From positions 930,001 to 994,000 of the forward strand of contig NZ_ARQM01000011.1 of assembly GCF_000385135.1 (NCBI RefSeq): DNA of 64,000 nucleotides, in the 5' to 3' direction. This DNA comes from Promicromonospora sukumoe 327MFSha3.1 (GTDB lineage: Bacteria; Actinomycetota; Actinomycetes; Actinomycetales; Cellulomonadaceae). The notes beneath the pieces were generated by a model. That model searched no databases and had not been told where the DNA came from. It saw only the letters and a program-made list of their open reading frames with translations. Of this stretch, positions 4,632-21,566 are shown in pieces (position 1 is the stretch's first letter; every line of letters begins with the position of its first letter). Position numbers and translations under genes: made by a program.

Positions 4632-4690
4632 AGCTCAAGATGTGGCACCTCCTCGCGCGCTGAGACCGCTTGTCTCATAACGTGTCGAGC

Positions 4691-6988
4691 GTGAAGCGCA
4701 CTGCAGGGGGCATGAGCGCGCTCGCGACGGCGGTTCTCGTCGCGATCGGCGCTGTCATTCCGGCGATGTCGGCCTCGGCGGAGACCACCGCCGGCTGGGC
4801 CGAGTGGGACCCGTTGTCCGGTTCGGCCGGGGACTGGTCCACGAGCGTGCGGCTCCCGGCGAAGGGCTTCCCGGAGGCGACGGTGACCTCCGACTCGCGC
4901 GGCGGCGTCGGCGTGATCTCGGGGGCGTCCTCCTGGCTCGCCGCGGCCACCCCGCCCGGCGAGGTCTACGGGTCGAGCCGCGACCAGCAGTACCTCAACC
5001 TGCGGCCGCAGGCCGACCGGCCCTCCTCGCCGTCGACCACCACCTACACCTTCGAGCGCGCCACGCCGCCCGGCGGCTGGGCGTTCGTGCTCGGCGACAT
5101 CGACGCGGACCGCGCGGTGGTGACCGCGCTCGGCGTGGACGGCCGGGAGCTCGCGGGCGCGGAGCTCGGCTTCCAGGGCGGCTTCAACTACTGCTCGGGC
5201 GCGGGGTCGCCGTCGTGCACGGGGGACCCGGCGGACGTGCCCGCCTGGGACCCGGCCACCGGCGAGCTGCTCGGCAACCCGGACGCGAACGACACCTCGG
5301 GCGCCGCGGGCTGGTTCCAGCCGACGACGCCGATCAAGTCGCTCACCGTCCAGTTCTTCCAGCGCAGCGGGTTCCCCGTCTACCAGACGTGGTTCGCCTC
5401 GCTGGCGCGCGACATCTCCGGGACCGTGAACCTCGTCGACGGGGCCGGCGCCCCGCAGGGCGTGCTGCCGGGCGCGAAGCTCACGCTGTTCGGCCCGGAC
5501 GGCGCCCAGCTCGCCACGACCACGTCGGACGAGAGCGGCCAGTACGCCTTCCCCGGCTACACCGCCGCGGACGGGTACGCCGTGGAGCTGACCACCCTGC
5601 CCGAGGCCGACGACGACCACCCGTACGGTCTCGTCCCGTACGGTGAGCGGACGGTCGAGGACGTCGACCTCGGCGACGCCGACGCCACCGGCGTCGACCT
5701 CGCGGCGCGCGACGTCGCCCCCGTGGCCGTGAGCGGTACGGTCCTGACCGACGACGGCGAGCCCGTGCGCGGGGCGACCGTGACCCTCACCCCGGTCGGC
5801 GGCGGCGTGCCGCTCACGGCCGTGACCAGCTCGACCGGCGAGTACCTGATCGACCACGTGGCCTGGGACGCCGAGAACGACCGCCCGCAGGAGTACACCT
5901 TCTCGCTGAGCGACCTGCCCGAGGGCTTCGCCGTCGGCTCGTCGCCGGACCCCGTCACGGTGCGGGTGGGCCAGGAGGAGGCCAGTACCGGCAACGACTT
6001 CGTCGTCCGGGCGCCCGCGTCGCTCTCCGGCACGGTGACCGTGGGCGGGGAGCCCGTCGCCGGCGTCGTCGTCACGCGCGAGGGGCCGGGCGGGAGCGTC
6101 AGCACCACGACCGACGCCGACGGCACCTACCGGTTCGACGAGGTGCCCGCCGGCGACCACGCGGTCCGGATCACCGTGCCCGACGGCTACCGCGCCGACG
6201 GCCCCGCCACGCGGGACGTCACGGTCGGCGCGGACGACGTGACCGACGTCGACTTCGGCCTGTCGCACCCCGGGGCGATCGGCGGCACCGTGGCCGACGA
6301 CGCGGGGGAGCCCGTGGCCGGCACGACCGTCACGGTGACCGGCCCGGACGGCCCGGTCACGCTCGTCACCGACGACGTGGGCGGGTACTTCGTGGGCGAC
6401 CTGCCGCCGGGCGACTACACGATCGTCGTCACGCTGCCCGAGGGGTACACGGCCGAGGTCGTCGAGCGGTCCGTCACCGTCACCAGCGCCGGCGAGGACC
6501 TGCTGCAGGAGGACTTCGCCCTGGTCAACGGCCCCGTCGAGCCCCAGGGGCAGCCGGCCGGCGGCACGGTCACCCACGCCGGGGGCGCGCCCGTGCCCGG
6601 CACCCGGGTGACGGTCACGGATGCCGACGGCACGCCGGTCGCCGCCACGAAGGCGGACGACGACGGCGCCTGGCGCACCCGGCTGCCCGCCGGCACGTAC
6701 ACCGCCGTCGTGCACCCCGGGGAGGGGTACGTCGTGGACGGCGAGGGGCGTATCACCTTCGAGGTGGCCGACGCCGAGGTGACCGGCCTCGACTTCGTGC
6801 TCGCCAACGCCGCGCAGGCCCCGAACCCCGGACCGGGCACCGACCCGTCGGCCGGCCCCGAGCCGGACCCGGCGGAGCCCGGCGACCTGGCCGCCACGGG
6901 CGCGACCGTCGGCTCGGTGACGCTGGCGGCCGGCGTGCTCGTGGCCGCGGGCGTCGCGATGGTCCGGGGGTCACGCCGCCGGAGCTGA
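4691..6988 (+). CDS. Secreted, sortase-anchored surface protein with repeated carboxypeptidase-regulatory-like (Cna-B type) domains
   Basis: 765 aa from the GTG at 4691. The signal peptide (KRT then a hydrophobic run) ends near ASA/ETT at about residues 30-32. Residues up to about 240 form a unique, probably folded domain. Five beta-sandwich repeats follow, each opening like SGTV..DGxGxPVxGxxVTVT. The C-terminus has LAATG, a hydrophobic segment and RGSRRRS, which is a class E (LAXTG) sortase signal typical of high-GC Gram-positives. The protein is therefore expected on the cell wall, with the repeats as a stalk. The start is uncertain: TTG 4670 and GTG 4682 are in frame and no ribosome site is clear. 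4691 places Lys-Arg at the signal N-terminus. The ligand is unknown. Confidence 0.82.
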   Translation: MKRTAGGMSALATAVLVAIGAVIPAMSASAETTAGWAEWDPLSGSAGDWSTSVRLPAKGFPEATVTSDSRGGVGVISGASSWLAAATPPGEVYGSSRDQQYLNLRPQADRPSSPSTTTYTFERATPPGGWAFVLGDIDADRAVVTALGVDGRELAGAELGFQGGFNYCSGAGSPSCTGDPADVPAWDPATGELLGNPDANDTSGAAGWFQPTTPIKSLTVQFFQRSGFPVYQTWFASLARDISGTVNLVDGAGAPQGVLPGAKLTLFGPDGAQLATTTSDESGQYAFPGYTAADGYAVELTTLPEADDDHPYGLVPYGERTVEDVDLGDADATGVDLAARDVAPVAVSGTVLTDDGEPVRGATVTLTPVGGGVPLTAVTSSTGEYLIDHVAWDAENDRPQEYTFSLSDLPEGFAVGSSPDPVTVRVGQEEASTGNDFVVRAPASLSGTVTVGGEPVAGVVVTREGPGGSVSTTTDADGTYRFDEVPAGDHAVRITVPDGYRADGPATRDVTVGADDVTDVDFGLSHPGAIGGTVADDAGEPVAGTTVTVTGPDGPVTLVTDDVGGYFVGDLPPGDYTIVVTLPEGYTAEVVERSVTVTSAGEDLLQEDFALVNGPVEPQGQPAGGTVTHAGGAPVPGTRVTVTDADGTPVAATKADDDGAWRTRLPAGTYTAVVHPGEGYVVDGEGRITFEVADAEVTGLDFVLANAAQAPNPGPGTDPSAGPEPDPAEPGDLAATGATVGSVTLAAGVLVAAGVAMVRGSRRRS

Positions 6989-7105: not shown

Positions 7106-9754
7106 ATGACGAGAAGGATCCATCCGGTGACAAGGCTGCGCGCGGTGGCCGTCACCCTGGCACTCACGGTGGGCGCGGCGCTCGGTGCGGGCGCTCCCGC
7201 GTCGGCGCTGCCGGCGGCCCCGGGGCACGGGCGGCTGGTGGTGTACGTCTCGGCGTCCGACGGCGACGACGCGAACCCGGGCACCCGGGGCGCCCCGTTC
7301 AAGACGATCGCCGCGGCCCGCGACGCGCTCGCGGGCCGTACCTCCGCCCAGCACCGGGGCACGGTCTGGGTGCGGGGCGGCGAGTACGTGCTCGACGACA
7401 CGGTCGCCCTGTCGGGCCCCGAGAACTCGTGGGTCACGTACGCCGCCTTCCGCGACGAGCAGGTGACCATCACGGGCACGCACGAGCTGCCCGCCGGCGG
7501 GTGGCAGCGGCTGACCGACCTGGGCGCCGACGAGCTCGCCCAGCCGCAGTACGCGGCGAACAGCCGGCTGGACAGCCCGGAGCTGCGCGACGGCGTCTGG
7601 GTCTACGACCTGGGTGCGCAGGGCATCGACCCGGGCACGCTGTACAAGAACGGCTTCAACTGGGTGCAGCAGCCGTTCGCCCCGGAGCTGGTGGTCGACG
7701 GCGCCACCCAGACGCTCGCCGAGTACCCGAACGGGAACGCCTGCGAGACCAAGGACACCGCGTGCCACCTGTGGGGCACCGGAGCCAAGTGGGGCGCCGC
7801 CGGGCCGCAGGACCTGATGAACGTGGACCTGCTCGGCCGGTTCGGGCCCCAGGGCGCCTGGGAGCGCAGCGGGACCACGCCGCGCGGCCAGTTCGAGGAC
7901 AAGAAGCAGACGCTGGCCGACCCGGACGAGCGCGGCTCGTGGACGCCCGAGCAGATGCGCACCATGACGCCGTCGATCTTCACGGTGGGCGGGCGCGCGG
8001 CCGAGGGCGACCGCTACCAGCGCTGGGCGCCGCAGGCCGAGCCCGTCGTGGACGACCTGGGCGGGCGCGGCCTCGCGGAGTACTCCGACGTGCCGGTGCA
8101 GCTCGATCCGCGGTGGATCGAGGACATCGACAGCACGCGGTACGAGACCGAGGCCTGGCTGTCCGGCTACCTCGGCAACAACTACGCCAACGACATGGTG
8201 CGGCTGCTGTCGTGGGACGAGGACCGGCTCTACGCCAAGTACCCCTCGATGTACATCCCGCAGGACGAGTGGACCAAGGTCAAGGTCGTCAACGTGCTGT
8301 CCGAGATGGACGCGGCCGGCGAGTACTACATCGATCGGTACGACGGCCACGACGTGCTCTACTACCTGCCCGAGGGCGGCTCGGTCGAGGGCAAGGACAT
8401 CTCGCTGATGGCCTTCGACAAGAACTTCTTCCACCTGGAGGGCACCACCGGCGTCACCCTGCGGGGGCTCGGCATGACCGGCTCGCTCGTCAGCGGCGTG
8501 CAGCTCCTCGACGCCGTCGACACCCTGATCGACGACGTCGAGATCTCGAACGTGAGCATGGACGCCGTCCGGATCGGGCGGCCCGCCGACACCATCACGG
8601 CGATGCCCGACTACCAGACCTTCCAGGGCGGGCACGGCAACGTGGTGCGGAACTCGTACCTGCACGACCTGGGCGGGGGCGGCGTGCTGCTCGGCGGCGG
8701 CGACCGCGCCACGCTGGAGCGCGGCGACAACGTGGCGCGGTACAACGAGATCGCGCGGTTCTCGAAGCTCGCGACGTACACGCCCGCCGGGTACCTGTAC
8801 GGCGTCGGCAACACGTTCGAGCACAACTACGTGCACGACGCCCCGCACATGGCGGTCCAGATCATGGGCAACGACATGAGGGTGAACCACAACCACTTCT
8901 ACGACCTGGTGAAGAACGCGGGCGACCAGGGCGTGGTCTACACGGGCCGCGACTACACGTTCCTCGGCAACGAGGTGGCCTACAACCACTTCGAGAAGAT
9001 CGGCGGCTCGAACGACGCGTTCTACATGGACGACGGCGCCTCGGGCATGCGGTTCCACCACAACGTGGTGCAGGGCGCGCACTCCGGCGTGTTCTTCCAG
9101 TCGGGGCACAGCAACACGGCCAACGACAACGTCTTCGTCGACGTCGACCGTACCGGCCACGACATGATGTACCACCAGAAGGGCGAGAAGTCCCTGCCGG
9201 TGTCGAACGCCTGGGTGGTGCACAGCCGGTTCAACACGTTCCTCGACGTGCGGCCGGGCGAGAAGTACAGCGCGACGCCGCAGACCGTGGCGACCTGGCA
9301 CGACCACTACACGAGCGGGGAGCACACCTACTCCGACGGCACCCCGATCGTGTACCCGGAGATCGCCGACTGGTACGTGCCCCGGGTCACCGCGACCGGG
9401 CTGGCCTGCACGACCGCGGACTACGCGACCGACGCCACCAACGGGTGCAGCCGGGCCACGGTGTGGAACAGCGCCGACTCGCTGTACGCGCCGTCGCGCA
9501 TCGAGATCGACCACTCGGTGGTGATCGGCGGCGGGGACTACGCGGCCGGCTCGGCCACGTTCTCGGCCCCGGCCGAGACCTACGGCCTGGCGCGGTGGAG
9601 CGACAAGGTGGGCACGAACGTCGTCCGCCCGGCGTCCCTGGCCGAGGCGGGCCTGGACGAGGAGACGCTCCAGTTCTCGACGACCGGGACGGTCGCGGAA
9701 GCGTTCGGCCAGGCGTGGGTCGAGGAGTGGAACCGCCTCCAGGCCGCCCCCTGA
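7106..9754 (+). CDS. Secreted right-handed parallel beta-helix protein, probable polysaccharide-active enzyme (GH141-like)
   Basis: 882 aa with a Sec signal (RRIHPVTRLRAVAVTLALTVG..., cleavage near ASALPAAPG at about residue 36). The mature start YVSASDGDDANPGTRGAPFK followed by TIAAARDAL is the opening of many beta-helix glycanases. VRGGEYVLDDTVALSG and repeated HNxVxxxxxxGVxFxxG-type rungs in residues 430-720 build the helix. The layout resembles GH141 and related families, which include alpha-L-fucosidases and xylanases; the exact family is an inference. A GGGAG site lies upstream of the ATG. Its place beside L-fucose catabolic genes, with a matching operator, suggests it frees the sugar taken up by the importer encoded at 15.4-18.5 kb. 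Confidence 0.75.
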   Translation: MTRRIHPVTRLRAVAVTLALTVGAALGAGAPASALPAAPGHGRLVVYVSASDGDDANPGTRGAPFKTIAAARDALAGRTSAQHRGTVWVRGGEYVLDDTVALSGPENSWVTYAAFRDEQVTITGTHELPAGGWQRLTDLGADELAQPQYAANSRLDSPELRDGVWVYDLGAQGIDPGTLYKNGFNWVQQPFAPELVVDGATQTLAEYPNGNACETKDTACHLWGTGAKWGAAGPQDLMNVDLLGRFGPQGAWERSGTTPRGQFEDKKQTLADPDERGSWTPEQMRTMTPSIFTVGGRAAEGDRYQRWAPQAEPVVDDLGGRGLAEYSDVPVQLDPRWIEDIDSTRYETEAWLSGYLGNNYANDMVRLLSWDEDRLYAKYPSMYIPQDEWTKVKVVNVLSEMDAAGEYYIDRYDGHDVLYYLPEGGSVEGKDISLMAFDKNFFHLEGTTGVTLRGLGMTGSLVSGVQLLDAVDTLIDDVEISNVSMDAVRIGRPADTITAMPDYQTFQGGHGNVVRNSYLHDLGGGGVLLGGGDRATLERGDNVARYNEIARFSKLATYTPAGYLYGVGNTFEHNYVHDAPHMAVQIMGNDMRVNHNHFYDLVKNAGDQGVVYTGRDYTFLGNEVAYNHFEKIGGSNDAFYMDDGASGMRFHHNVVQGAHSGVFFQSGHSNTANDNVFVDVDRTGHDMMYHQKGEKSLPVSNAWVVHSRFNTFLDVRPGEKYSATPQTVATWHDHYTSGEHTYSDGTPIVYPEIADWYVPRVTATGLACTTADYATDATNGCSRATVWNSADSLYAPSRIEIDHSVVIGGGDYAAGSATFSAPAETYGLARWSDKVGTNVVRPASLAEAGLDEETLQFSTTGTVAEAFGQAWVEEWNRLQAAP

Positions 9755-9818: not shown

Positions 9819-10556
9819 TCACTCCGCCGGGCGGCGGCGGGCCCAGCTGCCCGTGATGTGGTCGCGCATCGCGGCCGACGCCGCCTCCGCGTCGCCCGCG
9901 AGCAGCGCCGCCAGGATGTGGGTGTGCTGCTCGTGCGTCAGCTCGAGGTCCTCGCGCGTGGGGTGCCCGCTGTACTGCGGTGTGTGCAGGGCCTTGCCCT
10001 GGATGTTCGAGACGATCGCCCGGCCGAACGCGTCCTGCGAGGCGCGGTGGATCAGCTCGTGGAACTCGACGTCGGCCGCCGCGTAGGCGGTCGGGTCGTC
10101 CATCAGCCCGGCGAGCTCCTCGGCCTTGGCCGTCAGCGCCGCGCGCTGCGGCGCGTCCAGCAGGCCGGCCGCGCGCTCCGCCATGGCGCACTCCAGCGTG
10201 GCGCGGACCTGGACGAGGTTGTCGAGGTAGACCAGCCGGTCCTCGCGCTGGAACAGCGCGTCCAGCACCAGGGGGTCCAGGAGGCTCCACTGGTCCTGGT
10301 CCAGCACCACGGTGCCCCAGCCCTGGCGCGTCGCGACGAGCCCCTTCTCGGCCAGGGTGGTCGTGGCCTCACGGATCACCGTGCGGCTCACCTCGTACTG
10401 CTCGCACAGCACGCCGGCCGGCGGCAGTGCCGACCCGGGCGCGTAGTCGCCGACGACGATGGCCGTGACCAGGCTCTTGACGACAGCCGCGGCGAGCGGG
10501 GGACGGTGCCGCTGCGGGCGGGGTACTGCGGCACCGGCCGCGGGCGTCGAGTTCAT
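9819..10556 (-). CDS. GntR-family transcriptional regulator, FCD subfamily
   Basis: 245 aa from the ATG at 10556. The winged helix spans about residues 20-90 (GDYAPGSALPPAGVLCEQYE, then VSRTVIREATTTLAEKGLV). The all-helical FCD ligand domain covers about 105-235, with the metal-ligand pattern D..E..H (AAADVEFHELIHRAS) and a later His. FCD regulators usually bind organic or sugar acids, often through a metal, and repress sugar-acid catabolic genes. It is divergent from the dehydratase operon, so it is the likely local regulator of the sugar locus, with a sugar acid such as fuconate as a reasonable inducer (inference). A longer reading to 10601 exists but crosses the promoter. Confidence 0.9.
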   Translation of the reverse strand: MNSTPAAGAAVPRPQRHRPPLAAAVVKSLVTAIVVGDYAPGSALPPAGVLCEQYEVSRTVIREATTTLAEKGLVATRQGWGTVVLDQDQWSLLDPLVLDALFQREDRLVYLDNLVQVRATLECAMAERAAGLLDAPQRAALTAKAEELAGLMDDPTAYAAADVEFHELIHRASQDAFGRAIVSNIQGKALHTPQYSGHPTREDLELTHEQHTHILAALLAGDAEAASAAMRDHITGSWARRRPAE

Positions 10557-10571
10557 CAGACCGAGGGTAGT

Positions 10572-10617
10572 CGAGTGTTGTACTATCGTCACTCGTATCA
10601 TAAGTTATGAATGACAT
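10572..10617. promoter_or_regulatory. Divergent control region between gntR and the dehydratase operon
   Basis: CGAGTG (10572-10577) and CACTCG (10590-10595) form an inverted repeat around TTGTACTATCGT. ATGA-ATG-ACAT at 10607-10617 is one change from ATGT-N3-ACAT, the motif also seen at 7026 and 15361. These are plausible GntR contacts controlling both directions. Confidence 0.4.
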
Positions 10618-10666
10618 GCTGGCGGAGCGTCGCGAGCGTGCTGTCTCGACGACGATGTGGAGCACG

Positions 10667-11809
10667 ATGCGAATCACCGGGTACCGGAGCCTGACGACGA
10701 TTCACCGCTGGGGTCGTCCCGTGGGCGATGTGAACGGCGTGGTGGCCGGTGGCGTGACCGAGGTGCCGATCGTCCTGGTCGAGACCGACGGCGGGCTGAC
10801 CGGCGTCGGCCTCGGGGCCCACGGCGACATCGCGCGGGTGTTCCCCGCCCTGGACGGGCAGGACCCGCGGGCCGTGACCGCGCTGTACGACCGGATGCTC
10901 GCGTTCGTGTTCAAGTCCGGGCACAACGGCGCCACGTTCGGCACCATCGGCGCGCTCGACATGGCCCTGTGGGACCTCAAGGCCAAGATGGCCGACGAGC
11001 CGCTGTGGCAGACCCTCGGCGCCGACGACCGGTTCGTGCGCGGGTACGCCTCGGGCCTGGAGTACGGGCTCGGCGACGACGAGCTGGTCGGCCTCTACGA
11101 GCAGTGGGCCGAGCGCGGCTACACGGGCGCCAAGGTCAAGGGCGGCCTCGACGTGAACCGCGACGCCAAGCGGCTGGCCGCGGTACGCGACGTGCTGCGC
11201 GTCAACAGCGACCAGCCCGCCATGATGTACGACGTGAACGAGTCCTGGGGCCGGCACCAGGCGGTCCGGCTCGCGCGCCAGGTCGAGGAACAGGTGGACC
11301 TGACCTGGATCGAGGAGCCCGTGCGGCGCTGGGACGTGCCGGGGCACCGTGCGGTCGTGGCGGGCGTGCAGGCCGCCGTCGCCACCGGCGAGAACCTCAC
11401 CGGCCTGGAGCAGTACCGGCAGCTCCTCGACCAGGACGCCGTGACCGTGGTGCAGGCCGGCAGCGTCTGGGGCATCACCCACTTCCTGCGGGTGTCCGTG
11501 CTGGCCCTGGGCAAGGACCTGCCCGTGAGCCCGGTGGCGTACGACGCCAACCCGGTGGCGCACGCGGCCGCTGCCGTGCCGAACCACCTCGTCACCGAGG
11601 TCCAGGACCTCGAGGCGCCGGTGGGGCTGATCGTGGACCAGGAGTTCACCGACGGCGGGATACTTCTCGGCAGGTCGCCGGGGCTGGGCATCGAGGTCGA
11701 CGAGGCGCTCATCGCCGCGCAGCGGGAGTCGGGGGCGTGGTCCGCCCCCGCCGGGCCGCACGTGCGCCCCGCCGACGCCGGCCTGCGGCTCGCCCCGCGC
11801 CGTCCCTGA
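10667..11809 (+). CDS. Enolase-superfamily (mandelate racemase type) sugar-acid dehydratase, probable L-fuconate dehydratase
   Basis: 380 aa. The capping domain comes first, then a TIM barrel. KVKGG near residue 150 gives the KxK catalytic lysines. Metal ligands appear in MYDVNES (Asp), TWIEEPV (Glu) and ATGENLTG (Glu). The seventh-strand segment that normally holds the catalytic His reads SPVAYDANPVAHAAAA, with Val at the usual His position, so the chemistry may depend on the Lys face. The start at 10667 has GGAG four bases upstream and gives the typical MRITGYR opening; ATGs at 10607 and 10655 are in frame but lack a site, and 10607 lies in the operator. As first gene of the operon it would turn L-fuconate (or a similar acid) into 2-keto-3-deoxy acid. 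Confidence 0.85.
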   Translation: MRITGYRSLTTIHRWGRPVGDVNGVVAGGVTEVPIVLVETDGGLTGVGLGAHGDIARVFPALDGQDPRAVTALYDRMLAFVFKSGHNGATFGTIGALDMALWDLKAKMADEPLWQTLGADDRFVRGYASGLEYGLGDDELVGLYEQWAERGYTGAKVKGGLDVNRDAKRLAAVRDVLRVNSDQPAMMYDVNESWGRHQAVRLARQVEEQVDLTWIEEPVRRWDVPGHRAVVAGVQAAVATGENLTGLEQYRQLLDQDAVTVVQAGSVWGITHFLRVSVLALGKDLPVSPVAYDANPVAHAAAAVPNHLVTEVQDLEAPVGLIVDQEFTDGGILLGRSPGLGIEVDEALIAAQRESGAWSAPAGPHVRPADAGLRLAPRRP

Positions 11810-11850: not shown

Positions 11851-12861
11851 ATGACCCAGCGCCCCCGCGCGGTCCTCGCCTTCGGGCCGCCGTCCCTCGT
11901 GGGCCAGATCTTCACGCCGGACGCCCTCGCCCGGATCACCGCCGTGCTCGACGTCGACGTCGAGCAGGTGGTCACCGAGACCGGGTCCGAGGCCGCGCGC
12001 CGGCTGCTCGCCGACGCCGAGGTGCTGCTCGCGGGCTGGGGCGCGCCCCGGATCGGCGTCGAGGACGCCCCGAACCTGCGCGCCGTCGTCTACGCCGGGG
12101 GCGTCGCGAGCACCTGCCTCGACGACCCCGCGGCGCACGCCGCCCGGGGCCTGGTCGCCGCGAACGCGCGCGCCGTCAACGCCGTGCCCGTGGCCGAGTA
12201 CACGCTCGCGGCGATCCTGCTGGCCAACAAGCGCGCCTGGGCCGCCGAGCGGTCCTACCGCGCGACCCGGCGGCTGCCCGACCGCGCCGACGAGCGGGCC
12301 GACCTCGGCAACTACCGCCGCACCGTCGGCATCGTGGGCGCCTCCCAGGTCGGGCGCCGCGTGATCGAGCTGCTGCGCCCGTTCGACCTCGACGTCCTGG
12401 TGTACAGCCCGGAGCTGGACGAGACCAGCGCGGCCGCGCTGGGCGCCCGGTACGGCACCCTGGACGAGGTCGCGGCGCGGAGCGACGTGCTGTCGCTGCA
12501 CCAGCCGGTGCTCCCGGAGACGGTCGGCCAGATCGATGCCCGCGTCCTGGCCCTGCTGCCTGACGGCGCGACGCTGGTCAACACCGCGCGCGGCGCCGTC
12601 GTCGACGAGGCCGCGCTGCTGGCCGAGCTGCGCACCGGCCGGATCGACGCGGTGCTCGACGTGACCGAGCCCGAGCCCCCGGCCGCCGACAGCGAGCTCT
12701 GGGACCTGCCGAACGTGGTGCTCACGCCGCACATCGCCGGGTCGGCGGGCGGCGAGCTGCACCGCATGGGCGACCACCTCGCGGCCGAGGCCGAGCGGTA
12801 CGCCGCCGGGCTGCCGTTCGCCCACCCGGAGATCCTGCCGACGGGAGCACCACATGCGTGA
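11851..12861 (+). CDS. D-isomer-specific 2-hydroxyacid dehydrogenase family protein
   Basis: 336 aa. The NAD-binding motif is GIVGASQVGRRVIELL near residue 155. The catalytic Arg lies in LVNTARGAVVDEAALL (about 240), the Glu in DVTEPEPP, and the His in VVLTPHIAGSAGG (about 292). A strong AAGGAGG site precedes the ATG. The gene overlaps the next start by eight bases. Family members reduce 2-keto acids or oxidise 2-hydroxy acids with NAD(P). In this operon it could interconvert lactate and pyruvate, or act on a keto-sugar acid; nothing in the sequence fixes the substrate. Confidence 0.88.
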   Translation: MTQRPRAVLAFGPPSLVGQIFTPDALARITAVLDVDVEQVVTETGSEAARRLLADAEVLLAGWGAPRIGVEDAPNLRAVVYAGGVASTCLDDPAAHAARGLVAANARAVNAVPVAEYTLAAILLANKRAWAAERSYRATRRLPDRADERADLGNYRRTVGIVGASQVGRRVIELLRPFDLDVLVYSPELDETSAAALGARYGTLDEVAARSDVLSLHQPVLPETVGQIDARVLALLPDGATLVNTARGAVVDEAALLAELRTGRIDAVLDVTEPEPPAADSELWDLPNVVLTPHIAGSAGGELHRMGDHLAAEAERYAAGLPFAHPEILPTGAPHA

Positions 12862-13852
12862 GCACACCCTGCGCACCGGCACGCGGCTGACCGAGCTCGG
12901 CTTCGGCGCCGCGCAGCTCGGCAACCTCTACCGCGAGACCACCGACCAGGAGGCGCGCGACGCCGTCGACGCCGCCTGGGCCGCCGGCGTCCGCTACTTC
13001 GACACCGCCCCGCACTACGGCCTCGGCCTGTCCGAGCGGCGGCTGGGCGCCGCGCTCGCGGGCCGCCCGCGCGACGAGTACGTCGTCTCGACCAAGGTGG
13101 GGCGGGCCCTCGTGCCCACGCCGGAGCGTGCGCACCTCACGGACGACGGCGGGTTCGCCGTCCCGGCCGCGTACCGGCGGGAGTGGGACTTCTCGCGCGA
13201 CGGCGTGCTGCGCTCGCTCGAGGGCAGCCTGGACCGCCTCGGGCTGGACCGGGTCGACGTCGTCTACCTGCACGATCCCGACGACCACTGGGAGCAGGCG
13301 TCCACGGGCGGCGTCCAGGCCCTCGTGGAGCTGCGCGACCAGGGCGTGGTCTCCGCGGTCGGCGCGGGCATGAACCAGTCGGCGATGCTCGCGCGGTTCG
13401 TCCGCGAGACCGACGTCGACGTCGTCATGTGCGCCGGGCGGTTCACCCTCGTGGACCACACGGCCGTGGCCGACCTGCTGCCCGCCGCCGTCGGGCGCGG
13501 GGTGTCCGTGGTCGCGGCCGCCGTCTACAACTCGGGGCTGCTGGCGAACCCGCGCCCGCGGCCCGGCGCGCGGTTCGACTACGCGGAGGCGCCCGGCGAC
13601 CTCGTCGCCCGGGTGCACCGCATCGCGGACGTCGCCGAACGGTACGGCGTCACGGTCCCCGACCTGGCGGCCCGGTTCGCGCTGCGGCACTCCGCCGTGG
13701 CGTCGGTGGTCCTGGGCATGCGTACCGCCGAGCACGTGACGACGTCCGCCGAGCGGATCGCCCGCGACGTGCCGGCCGGGCTCTGGGACGAGCTCGACCG
13801 CCTCGGCCTGGTGCCGCACCTCTCATCACCCACAGGACGGAGCACGTCATGA
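12854..13852 (+). CDS. Aldo/keto reductase, probable L-fucose (aldose) 1-dehydrogenase
   Basis: 332 aa TIM-barrel oxidoreductase. The catalytic tetrad is visible: Asp and Tyr in FDTAPHYGLGLSE (about 49-61), Lys in VVSTKVGR (about 78), His in VYLHDPDDHW (about 138). A pyridine-nucleotide pocket is formed by the VASVVLGMRTAEHV region near 290. The closest known relatives by motif are D-threo-aldose/L-fucose dehydrogenases and pyridoxal dehydrogenases of the AKR superfamily. In the L-fucose pathway the enzyme oxidises beta-L-fucose to L-fuconolactone, which fits the mutarotase and lactonase genes nearby. Its start overlaps the upstream stop and its stop overlaps the next ATG (ATGA). Confidence 0.87.
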   Translation: MREHTLRTGTRLTELGFGAAQLGNLYRETTDQEARDAVDAAWAAGVRYFDTAPHYGLGLSERRLGAALAGRPRDEYVVSTKVGRALVPTPERAHLTDDGGFAVPAAYRREWDFSRDGVLRSLEGSLDRLGLDRVDVVYLHDPDDHWEQASTGGVQALVELRDQGVVSAVGAGMNQSAMLARFVRETDVDVVMCAGRFTLVDHTAVADLLPAAVGRGVSVVAAAVYNSGLLANPRPRPGARFDYAEAPGDLVARVHRIADVAERYGVTVPDLAARFALRHSAVASVVLGMRTAEHVTTSAERIARDVPAGLWDELDRLGLVPHLSSPTGRSTS

Positions 13853-15318
13853 CCACCCATCACGCCGCGGGGCCCGCGACGGCACCGAAGGTGACCGCGC
13901 TCGCCCGCTGGATGCGCACCTGGGTGGGCGCGGAGGGCCAGATCAGGGGCTTCCACAACCACAGCGTGTGGGGCACCAACCCGGCCACGTTCATCGACTT
14001 CACCAGCGGGCACCAGGCGTTCTCGGCACCCGCGACGGCGGCGTTCGCCGAGGCGCTGGCCAGGCACCCCGACGAGCGCGGGCTCGACCTGTGGCGCCGG
14101 ATGATGCTCTTCCAGGCCCGCACCGTCCAGGACGACGGGCAGTTCAAGCACATCGGCTTCCAGGTGGGGGAGTCGGCCACCGCCGGACTCATCCACAACA
14201 TGGCGGGCTGCATCGGGCTGCTGGAGGGCCTGCGGCACGCCGGGCACCTGCTGGAGCCCGCCGAGGTCGCGGAGGTGCTGCGCGCCGTGGCGGCCAACCT
14301 GGAGGCGTGCCGCGTCTACGGCGGCGGCCGGCCCACGCCCGAGGGCACCGTGAACCAGGAGTACGCCCGGGTCTGGGCCAAGCTCCGGTACACGGAGCTG
14401 TCCGGCGACGACCGCTACGCGGACGAGCTCGAGGAGGACCTCGACACCCTGGTGCGGCTCAGCGCCGCGCCCGGCGTGCCCGACGAGGAGAGCTCCGGCG
14501 CGTACCGGCAGCCCACCGACCGGGCGGGCGGCGGCATCCTGGAGCCGGCCGAGTACTACGGGCTGATGATGGTGCCGCTCGTGCTCGGGTCGCGGCGGTT
14601 CGGCCGCCGCGACCTGCTCGACGAGGCGGTCCGCCTCGGCCTGCACGTGGCGCGGTCGGCGTGGGTGGACGAGCGCGGCTGCACCCGCTACCACCGCTAC
14701 TGGTACGTCCGCGGGGACACGGTGCTGCGCACCACCACGCCCATGCTGATCGCGGGCATGGGGCTGAGCCTCTACGGGATCGACGAGATCCTCGCCGAGG
14801 TGAGCAACCCCGAGCTCGGCCGGTTCGTCGACGCGTGCCTGGCCACCTACGCGCACTACCAGACGCCGGCCGGCTACTTCGCGTCGGCCACGGGCTGGCA
14901 CAACGAGGCCGACGTCGCGCCGAGCACGGCGTGGCACGCCCACGACCTGATGTTCCTGGTGCGGCACGTGAGCACGCACGACTCGTTCTGGGCCGAGGTG
15001 TTCGCCGATCCCGACCGGCGGTCCGTGCTGCTCTCCGACCGGGCCTACTGGGTCGAGGACGGCGCCCACTGGGCGATCCTGAGCCCCGAGACCGCGGGCG
15101 ACCTCAGCATCTTCGGGCGCAAGGACCGGGACACCTTCGGGCGCTCGTTCTTCGCCTGGACCGACAAGGAGCCGCTCCCGCAGGAGCTGGAGCTGGCCGA
15201 GGCGCCGCACTTCTTCGTGGCGGACGACGGCATCTACCGGCTCGACGACTCGACCCGGGAGACCGACGTGTCGGTGCTCGGCGAGCTGCCGTACCGGGGC
15301 CACGTGCGCGGCGCGTGA
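13849..15318 (+). CDS. Unrecognised 489-aa protein, possibly an alpha/alpha-toroid enzyme
   Basis: 489 aa without a signal peptide, translationally coupled to the aldo/keto reductase (ATGA). I do not recognise the family with confidence. The composition is largely helical, rich in Trp and His, with repeated helical pairs such as NQEYARVWAKLRYTELSGDD and HAHDLMFLVRHVSTHDSFWA, as in (alpha/alpha)6-barrel glycoside hydrolases, lyases and epimerases. Conserved-looking acidic and aromatic clusters include FHNHSVWGTNP (about 36-46), GWHNEADVAPSTAWHAHD (about 350-367) and CTRYHRYWYVRGD. Its position inside a sugar-acid operon suggests a cytoplasmic oligosaccharide- or sugar-modifying step. This is the most interesting unassigned gene of the locus. 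Confidence 0.7.
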   Translation: MTTHHAAGPATAPKVTALARWMRTWVGAEGQIRGFHNHSVWGTNPATFIDFTSGHQAFSAPATAAFAEALARHPDERGLDLWRRMMLFQARTVQDDGQFKHIGFQVGESATAGLIHNMAGCIGLLEGLRHAGHLLEPAEVAEVLRAVAANLEACRVYGGGRPTPEGTVNQEYARVWAKLRYTELSGDDRYADELEEDLDTLVRLSAAPGVPDEESSGAYRQPTDRAGGGILEPAEYYGLMMVPLVLGSRRFGRRDLLDEAVRLGLHVARSAWVDERGCTRYHRYWYVRGDTVLRTTTPMLIAGMGLSLYGIDEILAEVSNPELGRFVDACLATYAHYQTPAGYFASATGWHNEADVAPSTAWHAHDLMFLVRHVSTHDSFWAEVFADPDRRSVLLSDRAYWVEDGAHWAILSPETAGDLSIFGRKDRDTFGRSFFAWTDKEPLPQELELAEAPHFFVADDGIYRLDDSTRETDVSVLGELPYRGHVRGA

Positions 15319-15425: not shown

Positions 15426-16703
15426 ATGTCAACTACGTTCCTGCGCCGCGCGCGCGGTGCCGTGGTGCTCGGCATGACCCCGGTCCTCGCGCTCGCGGCC
15501 TGCGGCTCGGAGGGCGGCAGCGGCGACGCGGCCGGCGACGGCTCGATCCGCATGCTCGTGAACATCACGGACAACCTCACGCAGGCCAAGTGGGAGGAGC
15601 TCGTCAAGCCGTTCGAGGACGAGAGTGGGATCGACGTCAAGATCGAGGGCCCCAGCGGCCAGTCGGTCGCCGAGTCCTTCCCCTCGCTGCTCGCGGCGGG
15701 CACCGCCCCCGACGTCATCGAGTCGATCGTGCCCGGTCCCGACACGGCCCCCGAGGTGCTCGACCTGACCGAGTACGACTGGGCCTCCGGCACCCCGATG
15801 GCCGACCTGTACTCGACGGACGGCACGATCAACGTGGTCGGCGTCGGCATGCAGGCGCAGTCGCTCATGTACTACAACGCGGACCTCTTCGCGGAGGCCG
15901 GCATCACCGAGCCGCCGACCACCTGGGACGAGCTCGACGACGCCCTCGCCGCCCTGGCCGCGAAGGACGTGGCCACCCCCATCGCCTTCGCCTCGGACTG
16001 GGCCACCGGCGTCCAGGTCCAGGAGATCTGGCACCCGCAGCAGAACGTCACCACGCCGGGCTGGCAGCAGAGCGTGGCGGACGGCTCGTCCACCCTCGGC
16101 GACCAGTTCCAGCCGGTGTTCGAGCACGTCACCGACTGGATCGACGCGGGATACACGACCGCCGACGACGTCGCGACCGACAGCGGCACGCAGGAGGCCA
16201 ACTTCATCGCGGGCGACGTGGGCATCTACCCGATGGGCTCCTGGTTCAGCACCACGCTCGCGGCCTCCCCGCCCGACTTCGAGGTGGGCGTGTTCGCCCC
16301 GCCGGTCGACGACGCCGCTGACGCGCCCGGACCCATGGGCGCCACCCTGGCCTTCCCGTACATGGTGTGGAAGGGCACGGCCAACCCGGACGGCGCCACC
16401 GCGCTGGTCGAGTACCTGACCACGGACGAGGCCGCCATCGCCGCCCAGGCCGAGATGGACAGCTTCAGCCGCGAGGGCCTGGAGCCCAGCAGCAACGAGT
16501 ACGCGGGCATGGTGCAGGAGCTGTCCGACGCCGCGCCGTCGTACGTCGTGCCGGGCAACCAGACCGTCGGTGACTACGCGCTGCCGGTGGCCGGGTTCAA
16601 CCCCAAGTTCACCGAGCTCGTCCAGGGCCTGTGGCAGGGCCGTTCCCCGGCCGACGTCGCCGGCGACCTGACCGCCTGGTACGAGGCGGAGAAGCTCGGC
16701 TGA
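15426..16703 (+). CDS. Sugar ABC transporter substrate-binding lipoprotein (CUT1 type)
   Basis: 425 aa. The lipoprotein signal has Arg residues, a hydrophobic core and a lipobox LALAAC with Cys at about 26, followed by a Gly/Ser-rich linker. The rest is a family 1 (extracellular_1) binding protein, with the typical MYYNADLFAEAGITEPPTTWDE block near 140 and FIAGDVGIYPMGSWF near 260. It would be anchored outside the membrane and deliver sugar to the two permeases that follow. A good AGGGAG site lies upstream. Confidence 0.92.
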   Translation: MSTTFLRRARGAVVLGMTPVLALAACGSEGGSGDAAGDGSIRMLVNITDNLTQAKWEELVKPFEDESGIDVKIEGPSGQSVAESFPSLLAAGTAPDVIESIVPGPDTAPEVLDLTEYDWASGTPMADLYSTDGTINVVGVGMQAQSLMYYNADLFAEAGITEPPTTWDELDDALAALAAKDVATPIAFASDWATGVQVQEIWHPQQNVTTPGWQQSVADGSSTLGDQFQPVFEHVTDWIDAGYTTADDVATDSGTQEANFIAGDVGIYPMGSWFSTTLAASPPDFEVGVFAPPVDDAADAPGPMGATLAFPYMVWKGTANPDGATALVEYLTTDEAAIAAQAEMDSFSREGLEPSSNEYAGMVQELSDAAPSYVVPGNQTVGDYALPVAGFNPKFTELVQGLWQGRSPADVAGDLTAWYEAEKLG

Positions 16704-16704
16704 C

Positions 16705-17619
16705 ATGGCTCGCACCACGACCACCCGGCGAGGGCTCCTCAGCGGTCTCGCGAACGGGCTGATGACCCTCCCGGCCGCCGTCGTCTACACCGGGCTGACG
16801 GTGGTGCCGGTCGGGTACGCCGTCTACTACTCCTTCACGCAGTACAACGGCATCCCGAGCCAGGCGCCCACCTGGGTGGGCTGGGAGAACTACGCGCGGA
16901 TCATCGCCGACCCCATCGGCGACCTGCGCCCGGCGGCGTGGGTGACGCTCGTGATCGCCGTGGTCGGCGCCTTCCTCGTGAACGGCGCCGCCCTCGGTAT
17001 CGCGATGCTGCTGCGCCGCACGACGGCGTTCAACACCTTCGCGCGCGCCGTGATGTTCTACCCGCACGTGCTGTCCGCCCTGATCGTGGGGTTCCTCTGG
17101 CAGGCGATCCTGGGCCCGCAGGGCGCCGTGAACAACCTGCTGGAGAACGCCGGGCAGTCCACGCTGCCGTTCCTGGCGGACCCGGACTGGGCGCTGGTGA
17201 CCCTCGTCGGCGTGATCGTGTGGGCGCAGTTCGGCGTCCAGCTCGTGCTGTACCTGGCGGGCCTGCAGGCCGTCTCCCCGGAGCTCCAGGAGGCCGCGCG
17301 GCTCGACGGCGCGAACGGCCCCCAGGTGTTCCGGCACGTCACCTGGCCGGCGCTCGCGCCGACCGTGACGGTCACGATCGTCACGTCGATCCTGTCGCTG
17401 CTCAAGGTCTACGACGTGGTGCTGGGCCTGACCAACGGCGGGCCCGGCGACGCCACGCAGACCTGGGCGTACGAGATCCTCGCGGTCTCGTTCGCCAACA
17501 ACAAGGTGGGCCTCGCGTGCGCGCAGGCCGTCCTGCTGGTCGTCGTGGCCGGAATCCTGTCTTTCACGATCATCGCGCTCCGCAGGCGGGCCGAAGAAGG
17601 AGCGGAGGCCGTCGGATGA
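16705..17619 (+). CDS. Sugar ABC transporter permease, MalF-like
   Basis: 304 aa with about six membrane helices. The EAA loop reads QEAARLDGANGPQVFRHVTWPALAPT at about 195-220, the contact site for the ATPase. It starts two bases after the binding-protein stop and overlaps the next permease (ATGA). No ATPase gene follows; actinobacterial CUT1 systems often share one multifunctional ATPase (MsiK) encoded elsewhere. Confidence 0.92.
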   Translation: MARTTTTRRGLLSGLANGLMTLPAAVVYTGLTVVPVGYAVYYSFTQYNGIPSQAPTWVGWENYARIIADPIGDLRPAAWVTLVIAVVGAFLVNGAALGIAMLLRRTTAFNTFARAVMFYPHVLSALIVGFLWQAILGPQGAVNNLLENAGQSTLPFLADPDWALVTLVGVIVWAQFGVQLVLYLAGLQAVSPELQEAARLDGANGPQVFRHVTWPALAPTVTVTIVTSILSLLKVYDVVLGLTNGGPGDATQTWAYEILAVSFANNKVGLACAQAVLLVVVAGILSFTIIALRRRAEEGAEAVG

Positions 17620-18458
17620 CGCGCACCACACCGATCCGCACGGCGTTCCGCGTCGGCCTCGTCGCCGTGCTCTCGATCGCCATGCTCGTGCCGATGTACA
17701 TCATGGTGGTCAACGCCTTCAAGCCGCAGCAGGAGATCCTGCTGTCCCCGCTCGGGTTCGACCTGGCCACCCTGACCACCGACCACATCGCGGCCGCGTG
17801 GCAGAACACGAGCTTCCCGGTGGTCGAGGGCTATGCCGTCACGCTGTTCCTGGTGCTGGCCTGCAACGTGGTGGCGATCGGGGCGTCCGTCCCGGCCGCG
17901 TACACGATCGCCCGCACGCCCACGCCGCTGTTCCGGTTCCTGCTGTTCTTCTTCGTCGCGGGCATGTTCGTGCCGGCGCAGATCATCCTGGTCCCGGCCA
18001 TCTTCGTGCTCAAGGCCCTCGGGCTGATGGGCACGCTGCCGGGCCTGGTGCTGTTCATGTCGTCCACGATGATCCCGTTCACGCTGTTCATCTTCAGCGG
18101 GTACATCCGGATGCTGCCCCGCTCGCTCGACGAGGCCGCCTCGATCGACGGCGCGGGCCGCCAGCGCATCCTGTGGACCATCGTGTTCCCGCTCATGCGG
18201 CCCATCGTGGCCACCGCGTTCATCCTCAACGCGCTGAGCGCCTGGAACGACTTCGTGAGCCCGCAGCTCATCCTCGGGCCCGGCTCGCAGTTCCGGACCA
18301 TCACCACCGGTGTGTACGCCGCGGTGTCCACCTACACGACCAACTACGAGATCGTCTTCCCCACCCTGCTGCTCGCCGTGGTGCCCATCCTGCTGATCTT
18401 CGTGCTCATGCAGCGGCACATCATGGGCGGCCTCTCGGCCGGCGCCGTCAAGGGCTGA
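17616..18458 (+). CDS. Sugar ABC transporter permease, MalG-like
   Basis: 280 aa with about six membrane helices (the first is VGLVAVLSIAMLVPMYIMVV). The EAA loop reads DEAASIDGAGRQRILWTIVFPLMRP near residues 175-199. The C-terminus ends QRHIMGGLSAGAVKG, the usual tail of MalG-type permeases. It overlaps the upstream permease by four bases, so the two form the membrane channel together. Confidence 0.93.
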   Translation: MTRTTPIRTAFRVGLVAVLSIAMLVPMYIMVVNAFKPQQEILLSPLGFDLATLTTDHIAAAWQNTSFPVVEGYAVTLFLVLACNVVAIGASVPAAYTIARTPTPLFRFLLFFFVAGMFVPAQIILVPAIFVLKALGLMGTLPGLVLFMSSTMIPFTLFIFSGYIRMLPRSLDEAASIDGAGRQRILWTIVFPLMRPIVATAFILNALSAWNDFVSPQLILGPGSQFRTITTGVYAAVSTYTTNYEIVFPTLLLAVVPILLIFVLMQRHIMGGLSAGAVKG

Positions 18459-18515: not shown

Positions 18516-19220
18516 ATGACCGTCGACTTCACCGACTCCAAGCAGGTCGCCCAGGCGATCCAGTACACGAACGTCAACCCGGACCTCACCCGGGCCGACC
18601 TCGTCAAGCACGTCGAGACCTGCGCCGAGTACGGCTTCGACGCCGCGATGATCGCGCCCTACTGGGTCTCGCTCGCCAAGGACGTGCTGGCCGGCACGGG
18701 CGTGCGCGTGGCCTCCACGCTCAACTTCCCGATGGCCAACGACACCCTGAAGATGCGCCTGGCCGCCCTGCGCTCCCTGGTCGCCGAGGGCGTCGACGAG
18801 TTCGACTTCCCGCCGCACCCCGGGCTGCTGATCGGCGGCGACGAGGACCTGTACGCCCAGGACATCACGGAGATCGTGGCCGTGGCCCACGCCGAGGGCG
18901 TCAAGGTCAAGGCGATGCTGGAGTTCGGCTTCCTGGAGACCGACGAGCTCAAGGTGAAGGCCACCCGGATCGCGTACGAGGCGGGCGTGGACTGGGTCAA
19001 GCAGTCGTCGGGCTGGGGCAAGGGCGGCCTGGTGGCCACCGAGCACGACGTGCGCCTGCTCGCCGAGAACATCGAGCCGCCGTGCCGGGTCAAGGTGTCC
19101 GGCAAGGTCAACACGCTGGAGAAGATGCGGTCGCTGTTCGAGGCCGGCGCCGAGCTGGTCGGCACCAGCTCGGGCCCGGCGATCGTCGACGGCCTCGTGG
19201 GGGACCCGGATGCCTACTGA
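18516..19220 (+). CDS. DeoC-family (deoxyribose-phosphate aldolase-like) aldolase
   Basis: 234 aa TIM barrel. The catalytic residues of DeoC can be placed: Asp in VDEFDFPPHP (about 92-101), the Schiff-base Lys in DWVKQSSGW (about 165), and the second Lys in RVKVSGKVNT (about 193). The phosphate-loop SGG of classic DeoC is SGK here. It overlaps the kinase gene that follows by 11 bases. Known DeoC enzymes split 2-deoxyribose-5-phosphate into acetaldehyde and glyceraldehyde-3-phosphate. With the adjacent kinase it could form a phosphorylative branch for a deoxy sugar; the true substrate is unknown. An AAGGAG site precedes the ATG. Confidence 0.85.
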   Translation: MTVDFTDSKQVAQAIQYTNVNPDLTRADLVKHVETCAEYGFDAAMIAPYWVSLAKDVLAGTGVRVASTLNFPMANDTLKMRLAALRSLVAEGVDEFDFPPHPGLLIGGDEDLYAQDITEIVAVAHAEGVKVKAMLEFGFLETDELKVKATRIAYEAGVDWVKQSSGWGKGGLVATEHDVRLLAENIEPPCRVKVSGKVNTLEKMRSLFEAGAELVGTSSGPAIVDGLVGDPDAY

Positions 19221-20160
19221 GGCCCGCGTCGCCGTCGTCGGCAGCTACGCCAAGGCGCTGGTGATGACGGCGGACCGCATCCCGGCGCCCGGCGAGACCC
19301 TGATGGGCCGCGACTTCCGCGGGACGTTCGGCGGCAAGGGCTCCGACATGGCGGTCCAGGCCGCCCGGCTGGGCGCCGCGGTGTCCTACCTCGGCGTCGT
19401 CGGCGACGACGTCTACGGGGTCGAGTTCCGCGAGCTCCTCGCGCAGGAGGGCGTCGACCCGGTCGGGCTGCGCGTCGCGCCGGGGGAGTCGACCGGCGTC
19501 GGCTTCATCGTCAAGGACACGGCGGGCCGCAACGTCATCGTCGTCGACCCGGGGGCGAACGACAGCTTCTCCCCGGCCGACGTCGACGCGGCCGCCGGGG
19601 CGCTGGGCGGCGCCCACGTCGCGCTCGCCCAGCTCGAGATCCCGCCGGCCACCGCCCTGCACGCGCTCGCCGTGGCGCGCGCGGCCGGGGTCACCACGAT
19701 CCTGAACCCCGCACCCGCGGTCGACCTGCGCGGGACCGACCTGACCTGCGTGGACGTGCTGACGCCGAACGAGCACGAGGCCAAGGCGACCCTCGGTCTC
19801 GCGCCCGACGACGCCACGCCGCCCGCCGAGCTGGGCCGGCGCCTGCTGGCCCTCGGCCCGCGCGCCGTGGTGGTCACGCTCGGTGAGGCCGGCGCGCTGG
19901 TCGTCACCGCCGACGGCACCGTCGAGGTGCCGCCGGTGCGCGTCGACGTCGTCGACTCGAACGGCGCGGGCGACAGCTTCAACGCAGCCCTGGCCGTGGC
20001 CCTCGGCGAGGGCCGCGACCTGCCCGCCGCCGCGGGCTTCGCCGGTACGGTCGCCGCACTGTGCTGCGAGCACTGGGAGACCGTCCCGTCCTACCGGGAC
20101 CGGGCCACGGTCGAGGCATTCCTGACCACTACCGAGACGACCACGGAGGCGCGACGATGA
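19210..20160 (+). CDS. PfkB/ribokinase-family sugar kinase
   Basis: 316 aa. The N-terminal PfkB signature GTFGGKGSDMAVQAARLGA spans about 39-57. The C-terminal catalytic signature VDSNGAGDSFNAALAVALGEG lies near 250-270 (GAGD anion hole and the Asp base). TPNEHEA near 183 is typical of ribokinases. It would phosphorylate a sugar with ATP in the cytoplasm. Tight coupling to the DeoC-like gene upstream and the RbsD/FucU gene downstream (ATGA) argues that the three act on the same sugar, perhaps a deoxypentose or fucose-like hexose. Confidence 0.88.
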   Translation: MPTEARVAVVGSYAKALVMTADRIPAPGETLMGRDFRGTFGGKGSDMAVQAARLGAAVSYLGVVGDDVYGVEFRELLAQEGVDPVGLRVAPGESTGVGFIVKDTAGRNVIVVDPGANDSFSPADVDAAAGALGGAHVALAQLEIPPATALHALAVARAAGVTTILNPAPAVDLRGTDLTCVDVLTPNEHEAKATLGLAPDDATPPAELGRRLLALGPRAVVVTLGEAGALVVTADGTVEVPPVRVDVVDSNGAGDSFNAALAVALGEGRDLPAAAGFAGTVAALCCEHWETVPSYRDRATVEAFLTTTETTTEARR

Positions 20161-20654
20161 GAGCTGGACGGATCCTGCACCCGGAGCTGGCCCGGGGCCT
20201 GGCCACGCTGGGGCACACCGACGTGGTGCTGGTCACCGACGCGGGCTTCCCCATCCCCGCCGGGGCCAACCGGGTCGACCTCGCGCTGACCCGCGGGCAG
20301 CTCGACGTGCAGTCGGTGCTGCGGGCGCTGCTGGACTCGACGTTCTTCGAGGAGGCGCACTTCGCCACCGAGCTCAAGACGCACCACCCACGCCTGTACG
20401 GCGAGGTGCAGGACATCTTCACCGGCTCCGGGGCCACGTTCCACGGCACCACGCACGAGGCGCTCATCGAGCAGTGGGCCCCGCGCGCCAAGGTCGTGGT
20501 GCGCTCGGGCTCGTTCGAGCCCTGGGCCAACTTCGCGCTCGTCGCCTCGACGGCCCCGTTCGAGTGGTTCGACGACGACGAGGTGACGATCCTGCCCGCG
20601 TACGTCGAGCGGCGCCGCCTCATCTCCGAGGCCGTCCGCCCCGACCTGGGCTGA
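20157..20654 (+). CDS. RbsD/FucU-family sugar mutarotase
   Basis: 165 aa. The catalytic His and Asp of the family appear in LGHTDVVLVTDAGFPIPAG (about 17-35). The C-terminus carries the conserved RSGSFEPWANFALVAS segment (about 120-135) of the FucU branch, including Tyr/Trp contacts. RbsD interconverts pyran and furan forms of ribose, whereas FucU interconverts alpha- and beta-L-fucose. Here the neighbours (lactonase, aldo/keto reductase) favour a FucU-like role of supplying the right anomer. Decameric cytoplasmic enzyme by family knowledge. Confidence 0.87.
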   Translation: MRAGRILHPELARGLATLGHTDVVLVTDAGFPIPAGANRVDLALTRGQLDVQSVLRALLDSTFFEEAHFATELKTHHPRLYGEVQDIFTGSGATFHGTTHEALIEQWAPRAKVVVRSGSFEPWANFALVASTAPFEWFDDDEVTILPAYVERRRLISEAVRPDLG

Positions 20655-20657
20655 GCC

Positions 20658-21566
20658 ATGACGCAGAGGATCGACGCGCACCACCACCTGTGGGTGCGCT
20701 CGCGGACGCCGCAGGACTGGATCGACCCGGTGGGCATGGCGGCCATCGACGCCGACTTCACGCCGGACGACCTGGCCGCGGCGCTGGCCGGCCAGGGCGT
20801 GACGGGCACCGTCGTGGTCCAGTCGGTGCAGGTCGAGGCCGAGACCGTCGACCTGCTGGCCCTCGCGGCCCGCACCCCGGTGGTGCAGGGCGTCGTGGGC
20901 TGGGTGGACCTGACGGCCCCCGACGTCGCCGGAGCCCTGGCCCGGCTGCGGTCCGGGCCGGGCGGCGCGCACCTGGTGGGCGTCCGGTCGATGGTCCAGG
21001 CGGAGCACGACCCCGCCTACCTGGACGGCGCCGACCTGCGCCGGGGCATGCGGGCGGTGGCCGCCGCCGGTCTGGCGCTCGACCTGGTGACCCGGCACGA
21101 CCAGCTCCCCGCCGTCGCGCGGCTGGTCCGCGAGCTGCCCGAGGTGCCGTTCGTGCTGGACCACCTGGGCAAGCCGCCGCTCGCCGGCGACGACCCCACC
21201 ACCGGCGGCGACCTCGCCGGCTGGGCCGCGGCGATCGACGCCGTCGCGGCCTCGCCGAACGTGACGGCCAAGCTGTCCGGCCTGGTTACCGAGGCGTCCT
21301 GGACCGGGTGGTCCGCGGAGGGCCTGCGGCCCGCCGTCGAGCACGCGCTCGCCGCCTTCGGTCCGGACCGGCTCATGTTCGGCTCCGACTGGCCGGTCAG
21401 CCTGCTGGCCGCCCGCTACGACACGTGGGTCGAGTCGCTGTCCGGCCTCCTGGCCGGCCTGGCGCCGGCCGAGCAGGAGGCGATCTGGCACGGCACGGCG
21501 CGGCGCGCGTACGGCCTGCCCGCCTCCGCCACCGAAGAACCCCGGCAAGAAGAGGAGCAAGGATGA
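20658..21566 (+). CDS. Amidohydrolase-fold lactonase, probable L-fuconolactonase
   Basis: 302 aa. The metal site HHHLW is at the N-terminus (IDAHHHLWVRS, about 5-14); VLDHLGKPPL (about 168) and MFGSDWPVSLL (about 237) carry the further catalytic His and Asp. These motifs mark the COG3618 lactonases, which include L-fuconolactonase and L-rhamnonolactonase. It would open the lactone formed by the aldo/keto reductase. The gene starts three bases after the mutarotase stop and overlaps the next ATG. Confidence 0.88.
   Translation: MTQRIDAHHHLWVRSRTPQDWIDPVGMAAIDADFTPDDLAAALAGQGVTGTVVVQSVQVEAETVDLLALAARTPVVQGVVGWVDLTAPDVAGALARLRSGPGGAHLVGVRSMVQAEHDPAYLDGADLRRGMRAVAAAGLALDLVTRHDQLPAVARLVRELPEVPFVLDHLGKPPLAGDDPTTGGDLAGWAAAIDAVAASPNVTAKLSGLVTEASWTGWSAEGLRPAVEHALAAFGPDRLMFGSDWPVSLLAARYDTWVESLSGLLAGLAPAEQEAIWHGTARRAYGLPASATEEPRQEEEQG

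Follow-up and report, generated by a model that had tools for sequence, protein, structure and literature searches.

The window, a 64,000-nucleotide stretch of the Promicromonospora sukumoe 327MFSha3.1 genome, carries a gene cluster around an unassigned open reading frame for a 489-aa protein (13849-15318, + strand). On its upstream side, family scans placed a right-handed beta-helix protein with a secretory N-terminal segment (7106-9754, +), a GntR/FCD regulator (9819-10601, -), a mandelate racemase/muconate lactonizing (MR/MLE) superfamily protein that is a probable sugar-acid dehydratase (10607-11809, +), a D-isomer 2-hydroxyacid dehydrogenase (11851-12861, +) and an aldo/keto reductase (AKR; 12854-13852, +). 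On its downstream side lie a sugar ABC transporter substrate-binding lipoprotein (15426-16703, +; family scan) and two sugar ABC permeases named after annotated Streptomyces relatives (16705-17619 and 17616-18458, both +). Family scans then gave a DeoC-type aldolase (18516-19220, +), a PfkB kinase that is nearest to ribokinase at a score below cut-off (19210-20160, +), an RbsD/FucU mutarotase family protein (20157-20654, +) and an SDR dehydrogenase (22429-23175, +). Between the last two are an amidohydrolase, or lactonase, nearest the L-fucono-1,5-lactonase model (20658-21566, +) and an FAA hydrolase nearest the 2,4-didehydro-3-deoxy-L-rhamnonate hydrolase model (21563-22432, +), both below the equivalog cut-off. 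A secreted 772-aa protein with repeated carboxypeptidase-regulatory-like domains is encoded just upstream of the cluster (4670-6988), and another secreted protein, of 726 aa, at 25041-27221; the latter has a ricin-type lectin domain, matches no catalytic domain in Pfam and is also present in a close relative (L012).

Oxidation of L-fucose or L-galactose can proceed by a route through a lactone, a dehydratase and a diketo-hydrolase. By its family assignments the cluster resembles this route, with L-fucose or L-galactose as the candidate sugar. The AKR had five PDB matches at cut-off, all five of them L-galactose dehydrogenases. Among NCBIfam models the MR/MLE protein was nearest to L-talarate/galactarate dehydratase, far under the cut-off, and none of its PDB matches at 1e-30 was named L-fuconate dehydratase.

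Translation of the window gave 489 codons without a stop for the unassigned frame, which is a genuine gene. From the sequence, the preliminary description had proposed that it is translationally coupled to the AKR, lacks a signal peptide and is rich in Trp and His, and each of these points held. The ATG shares four bases (ATGA) with the AKR stop, the AKR ending at 13852, and the same overlap recurs in at least nine relatives with an AKR upstream, seen in Promicromonospora, Glycomyces, Ruania and Streptomyces. A four-base overlap also joins the gene to an upstream ThuA-domain gene in two relatives (Agromyces and Leucobacter), and several Streptomyces loci have an alternative start further upstream that overlaps the stop of the lactonase or the AKR likewise. 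The gene is thus probably co-translated with sugar-oxidation genes. Coupling to the AKR is real but not universal, and the steadier partners are the importer, the 2-hydroxyacid dehydrogenase and the beta-helix protein. No hydrophobic N-terminal segment or signal peptide was found in the 489-aa protein, unlike the adjoining beta-helix and binding proteins, which do have such a hydrophobic segment. Trp and His make up 2.7% and 4.3% of its residues, compared with 1.8% and 2.0% in the other proteins of the cluster. Against three Promicromonospora orthologues dN/dS was 0.08-0.12, and third codon positions carry most of the differences among close orthologues; the gene is under purifying selection.

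Searches of Pfam, NCBIfam, PHROGs and PDB sequences gave no assignment at curated cut-offs, in keeping with the preliminary description, which could not place the protein in a family. A match to NCBIfam TIGR02284 (E 0.0017 over 61 residues, 18.7 bits against a cut-off of 44.8) was taken as a chance match to a helix pair. Weak matches to PF07944 (GH127) were found in 22 of 24 members of the family, with a best E of 2e-5; the 489-aa protein itself scored 11.3 bits against the cut-off of 24.9, and its gene was absent from the PF07944 matches in its own genome at E 1e-3. PF07221 (AGE epimerases) and PF03663 (GH76) matched neither the protein nor any of the 24 members at E up to 1. No profile match was obtained with PF07470 (GH88/GH105) in the protein or the members, with the alginate-lyase family PF05426, or with Pfam models for GH95. 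Profile-profile tests against GH127, AGE, GH76 and PF05426, run with shallow profiles, gave no convincing match: hhalign returned E 0.15 for AGE, E 0.22 for PF05426, which is not significant, and for GH76 a local alignment of 81-85 columns with E about 0.001 and a probability of 19-24%. Because the profile tests do not support membership, we do not place the protein in GH127, AGE, GH76, GH88 or PF05426; it resembles the first four in fold and the last in one motif. No relative was found in viral contigs, and no report on the family was found in the open literature searched.

Two AlphaFold2 models (pLDDT 85.9 and 87.1, pTM 0.89 and 0.90) predicted a closed (alpha/alpha)6 barrel, whose twelve helices extend to residue 373, followed by a beta domain at the C terminus (residues about 391-485; 15019-15303, +). 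The models and the structural comparison bear out the helical six-hairpin barrel, like that of alpha/alpha-toroid enzymes, that had been suggested from the composition. Structural matches with Z 23-30 over about 280-345 residues were mostly sugar enzymes; GH95 did not occur among the 50 matches listed, nor did polysaccharide lyases, and both may appear further down. The best match was YPO2471 (PDB 7tem), a putative exported protein with Z 28.9-29.6 and an rmsd of 3.2-3.3 A over 333-334 residues. It differs from the 489-aa protein in being titled exported, in its sequence (10-11% identity) and in an alignment that stops short of the beta domain, and an open-literature search found no paper on it. 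The GH76 alpha-1,6-mannanases also have the barrel in common (Z 24-27), but their profile-profile likeness is local only, about 80 columns. Foldseek ranked GH127 first, at E 5e-7. The GH127 beta-L-arabinofuranosidase HypBA1 likewise has a barrel followed by a beta domain; it uses a Cys nucleophile with a Cys3-Glu zinc site, whereas the 489-aa protein has four Cys, of which only C330 is invariant. Barrels of the GH88/GH105 unsaturated uronyl hydrolases match in fold too, although not in profile. The predicted fold and the genomic setting are well supported, and the modelled fold would suit a hydrolase as well as an epimerase.

We then compared sequences across the family. In 23 sequences, 111 residues were invariant, and 77 of them fall in six segments (187 of the 489 residues) around the loops preceding the inner helices, which were recognised by helix order rather than by coordinates. 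About 80 residues were still invariant, down to 40% identity, once divergent Paenibacillaceae sequences had joined the comparison. The alignment marks four blocks. FHNHSVW (residues 35-41; 13951-13971, +) lies in loop 1, with N37-H38-S39-V40-W41-G42 invariant. NQEYAR (169-174; 14353-14370, +) lies in loop 3 with N169, Q170, Y172 and R174 invariant, EPAEYY (232-237; 14542-14559, +) in loop 4 with E232, E235, Y236 and Y237, and WHNEAD (350-355; 14896-14913, +) in loop 6 with W350 and E353. A WHAHD sequence with W362, H365 and D366 invariant follows the WHNEAD block. D50, Q98, E108, N117, D212, R220, R269 and D274 are also invariant, and so are the His residues H38, H55, H116, H266 and H365, several of which lie at the barrel mouth. 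FHNHSVW and WHNEAD, the blocks singled out in the preliminary description, thus sit in loops of the same barrel mouth. Model confidence is low (pLDDT under 50 at 42-54 and 105-111) in loops 1 and 2, which are two of the best conserved, and for this reason the model does not allow roles to be given to individual residues.

We counted the neighbouring genes in 32 actinobacterial loci, using the window proteins and annotated Streptomyces proteins as tblastn queries; the counts are lower bounds because of short contigs and flanks, and near-identical strains account for some of the loci. The importer was found in all 32, the 2-hydroxyacid dehydrogenase in 31, the beta-helix protein in 30, the GntR/FCD regulator in 29, the MR/MLE protein in 27 and the AKR in 26, and the sugar-oxidation setting that had been read from the window alone is thus conserved. 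Less frequent were the FAA hydrolase (16), the lactonase (15), SDR and ThuA proteins (14 each), RhaM (12) and GH95 (8). The DeoC aldolase, PfkB kinase and RbsD/FucU genes (18516-20654) follow the importer in 7-8 loci only, and a second MR/MLE copy is present in several Streptomyces loci. In Streptomyces, GH95 and GH141_M proteins adjoin the family gene, and one beta-helix protein carries a GH141_M domain, the GH141 and GH95 identities coming from weak profile matches or record annotation. Both are families of alpha-L-fucosidases, and BT1002, an endo-acting enzyme of GH141, yields a fucose-containing disaccharide (PMC10154630). In Paenibacillus, the family gene occurs with a GH88-family protein, an AKR, an FAA hydrolase, a GFO/IDH/MocA protein and a 645-aa protein of no known family. 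This last protein (L061:6148-8085, -), 645-650 aa in length and with no Pfam or NCBIfam match, recurs beside the family gene or near it in six Paenibacillus loci (L061, L039, L057, L059, L060 and L062).

From the computed fold, conservation, neighbourhood and partner families we infer that the 489-aa protein is catalytic; it is very probably a carbohydrate-active enzyme of (alpha/alpha)6 fold in an unassigned family. The new cytoplasmic sugar-active enzyme put forward in the preliminary description is thereby supported as a reading. Its reaction may be glycoside hydrolysis, which we favour tentatively, at somewhat under even chances, and the reaction centre would be the barrel mouth, where six loops carry the majority of the invariant residues. 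The operon as a whole would release, import and oxidise a sugar of the L-fucose or L-galactose type. Outside the cell, GH141-like beta-helix enzymes and GH95-type enzymes, both secreted, would cut a polysaccharide, the ABC importer would take in short oligosaccharides, and the 489-aa enzyme would free the sugar inside. The co-translated dehydrogenase and the lactonase would oxidise it, with dehydration and cleavage to follow. An endo-acting GH141 that releases a fucose-containing disaccharide would need a cytoplasmic step such as this one. Breakdown of oligosaccharides in the cytoplasm also fits because the GH88-like proteins of Paenibacillus and the beta-helix protein of L039 have no signal segment. 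Counting against hydrolysis are that no catalytic acid pair could be assigned in the protein, that the fold suits AGE epimerases and GH76 hydrolases about equally, that a lyase-like NHSVW motif is present and that GH95 occurs in only 8 of the 32 loci.

The protein could instead be a sugar epimerase, isomerase or mutarotase, akin in fold to the N-acylglucosamine 2-epimerase (AGE) group, that readies the dehydrogenase's substrate. The (alpha/alpha)6 barrel is found in cellobiose 2-epimerase, glucose 2-epimerase, mannose isomerase and YihS, which all match at Z 23-26 over about 315-333 residues; a step on a monosaccharide would be in keeping with the co-translation with a sugar dehydrogenase, and several invariant His residues lie at the mouth, as noted above, where AGE epimerases have two catalytic His. 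We nevertheless consider such an activity unlikely. Neither PF07221 nor the profile-profile comparison revealed any similarity, and a mutarotase, RhaM or RbsD/FucU, is already present in many loci. Moreover, the extra beta domain has no counterpart in the AGE structures, because the structural matches end at about residue 377.

A cytoplasmic lyase seems improbable, and somewhat more so than an epimerase; it would break a glycosidic bond by beta-elimination beside a sugar that is acidic or oxidised, N37 being the neutraliser and H38 the base. The alginate-lyase family PF05426 is marked by an NNH motif in its active-site loop. The invariant NHSVW, which is NNHSVW in one Paenibacillaceae branch, resembles NNHSVCW and NNHGTW of PF05426 proteins from the same bacterial family. 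Enzymes of family GH88 act on lyase products, and a GH88-family protein is adjacent or near in nine Paenibacillus loci. However, the PF05426 profile comparison was not significant, the motif lies in the first barrel loop here and mid-chain in PF05426 proteins, and none of 24 genomes around that of the window had a GH88 gene above cut-off. As a further rival, the protein could descend from a sugar enzyme, bind the sugar that is imported and be non-catalytic or regulatory. This would agree with the strict co-occurrence with the importer and with the lack of assigned catalytic residues, but is very unlikely given that about 80 residues, many around the mouth, do not vary even at 40% identity, a pattern typical of active sites.

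The 489-aa protein could conceivably be the first examined member of a new family with an undescribed step in fucose or L-galactose use, for example a lyase or hydrolase for imported fucose-containing disaccharides; we regard this as possible, though rather doubtful. Knowing its activity would give a name to a family of hypothetical proteins, could extend the set of carbohydrate-enzyme families, and would show on which fucose- or L-galactose-containing polymer these bacteria feed. The operon, conserved in soil actinobacteria and Paenibacillus, groups one unnamed protein with beta-helix enzymes (partly GH141-like), an importer and a pathway of oxidation.

The family is rare. A scan of 84,980 GTDB species genomes found relatives on 30 contigs, mostly of actinobacteria (Promicromonospora, Isoptericola, Krasilnikoviella, Glycomyces, Ruania, Agromyces, Leucobacter, Streptomyces, Kitasatospora, Prauserella and Nocardioides), with one Paenibacillus relative at 40% identity. 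Matches were present in 7 of 150 genomes of the window's bacterial family and 3 of 396 of its phylum, one of these weak, its own genome being counted in both. Profile searches found the family in 12 of 104 genomes from the bacterial family of that Paenibacillus, once as a short fragment only; among 299 genomes of its phylum the starting genome alone matched. Copies in Glycomyces are 81-84% identical to that of the window, and those of Isoptericola and Krasilnikoviella, from its own bacterial family, 76-78%. Two Streptomyces plasmids (L010 and L011) carry the cluster, one of them 1.5 Mb, linear and typed mobilizable. As the Glycomyces copies are nearer than those of its own family and plasmids carry the cluster, the sequences suggest horizontal transfer. 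One further locus, L139 (G1241:C3:493399-493671), retains the family's C-terminal part only (about residues 388-486, with 60% identity) and, next to it, a truncated permease; this relic looks like a copy of the cluster that has decayed.
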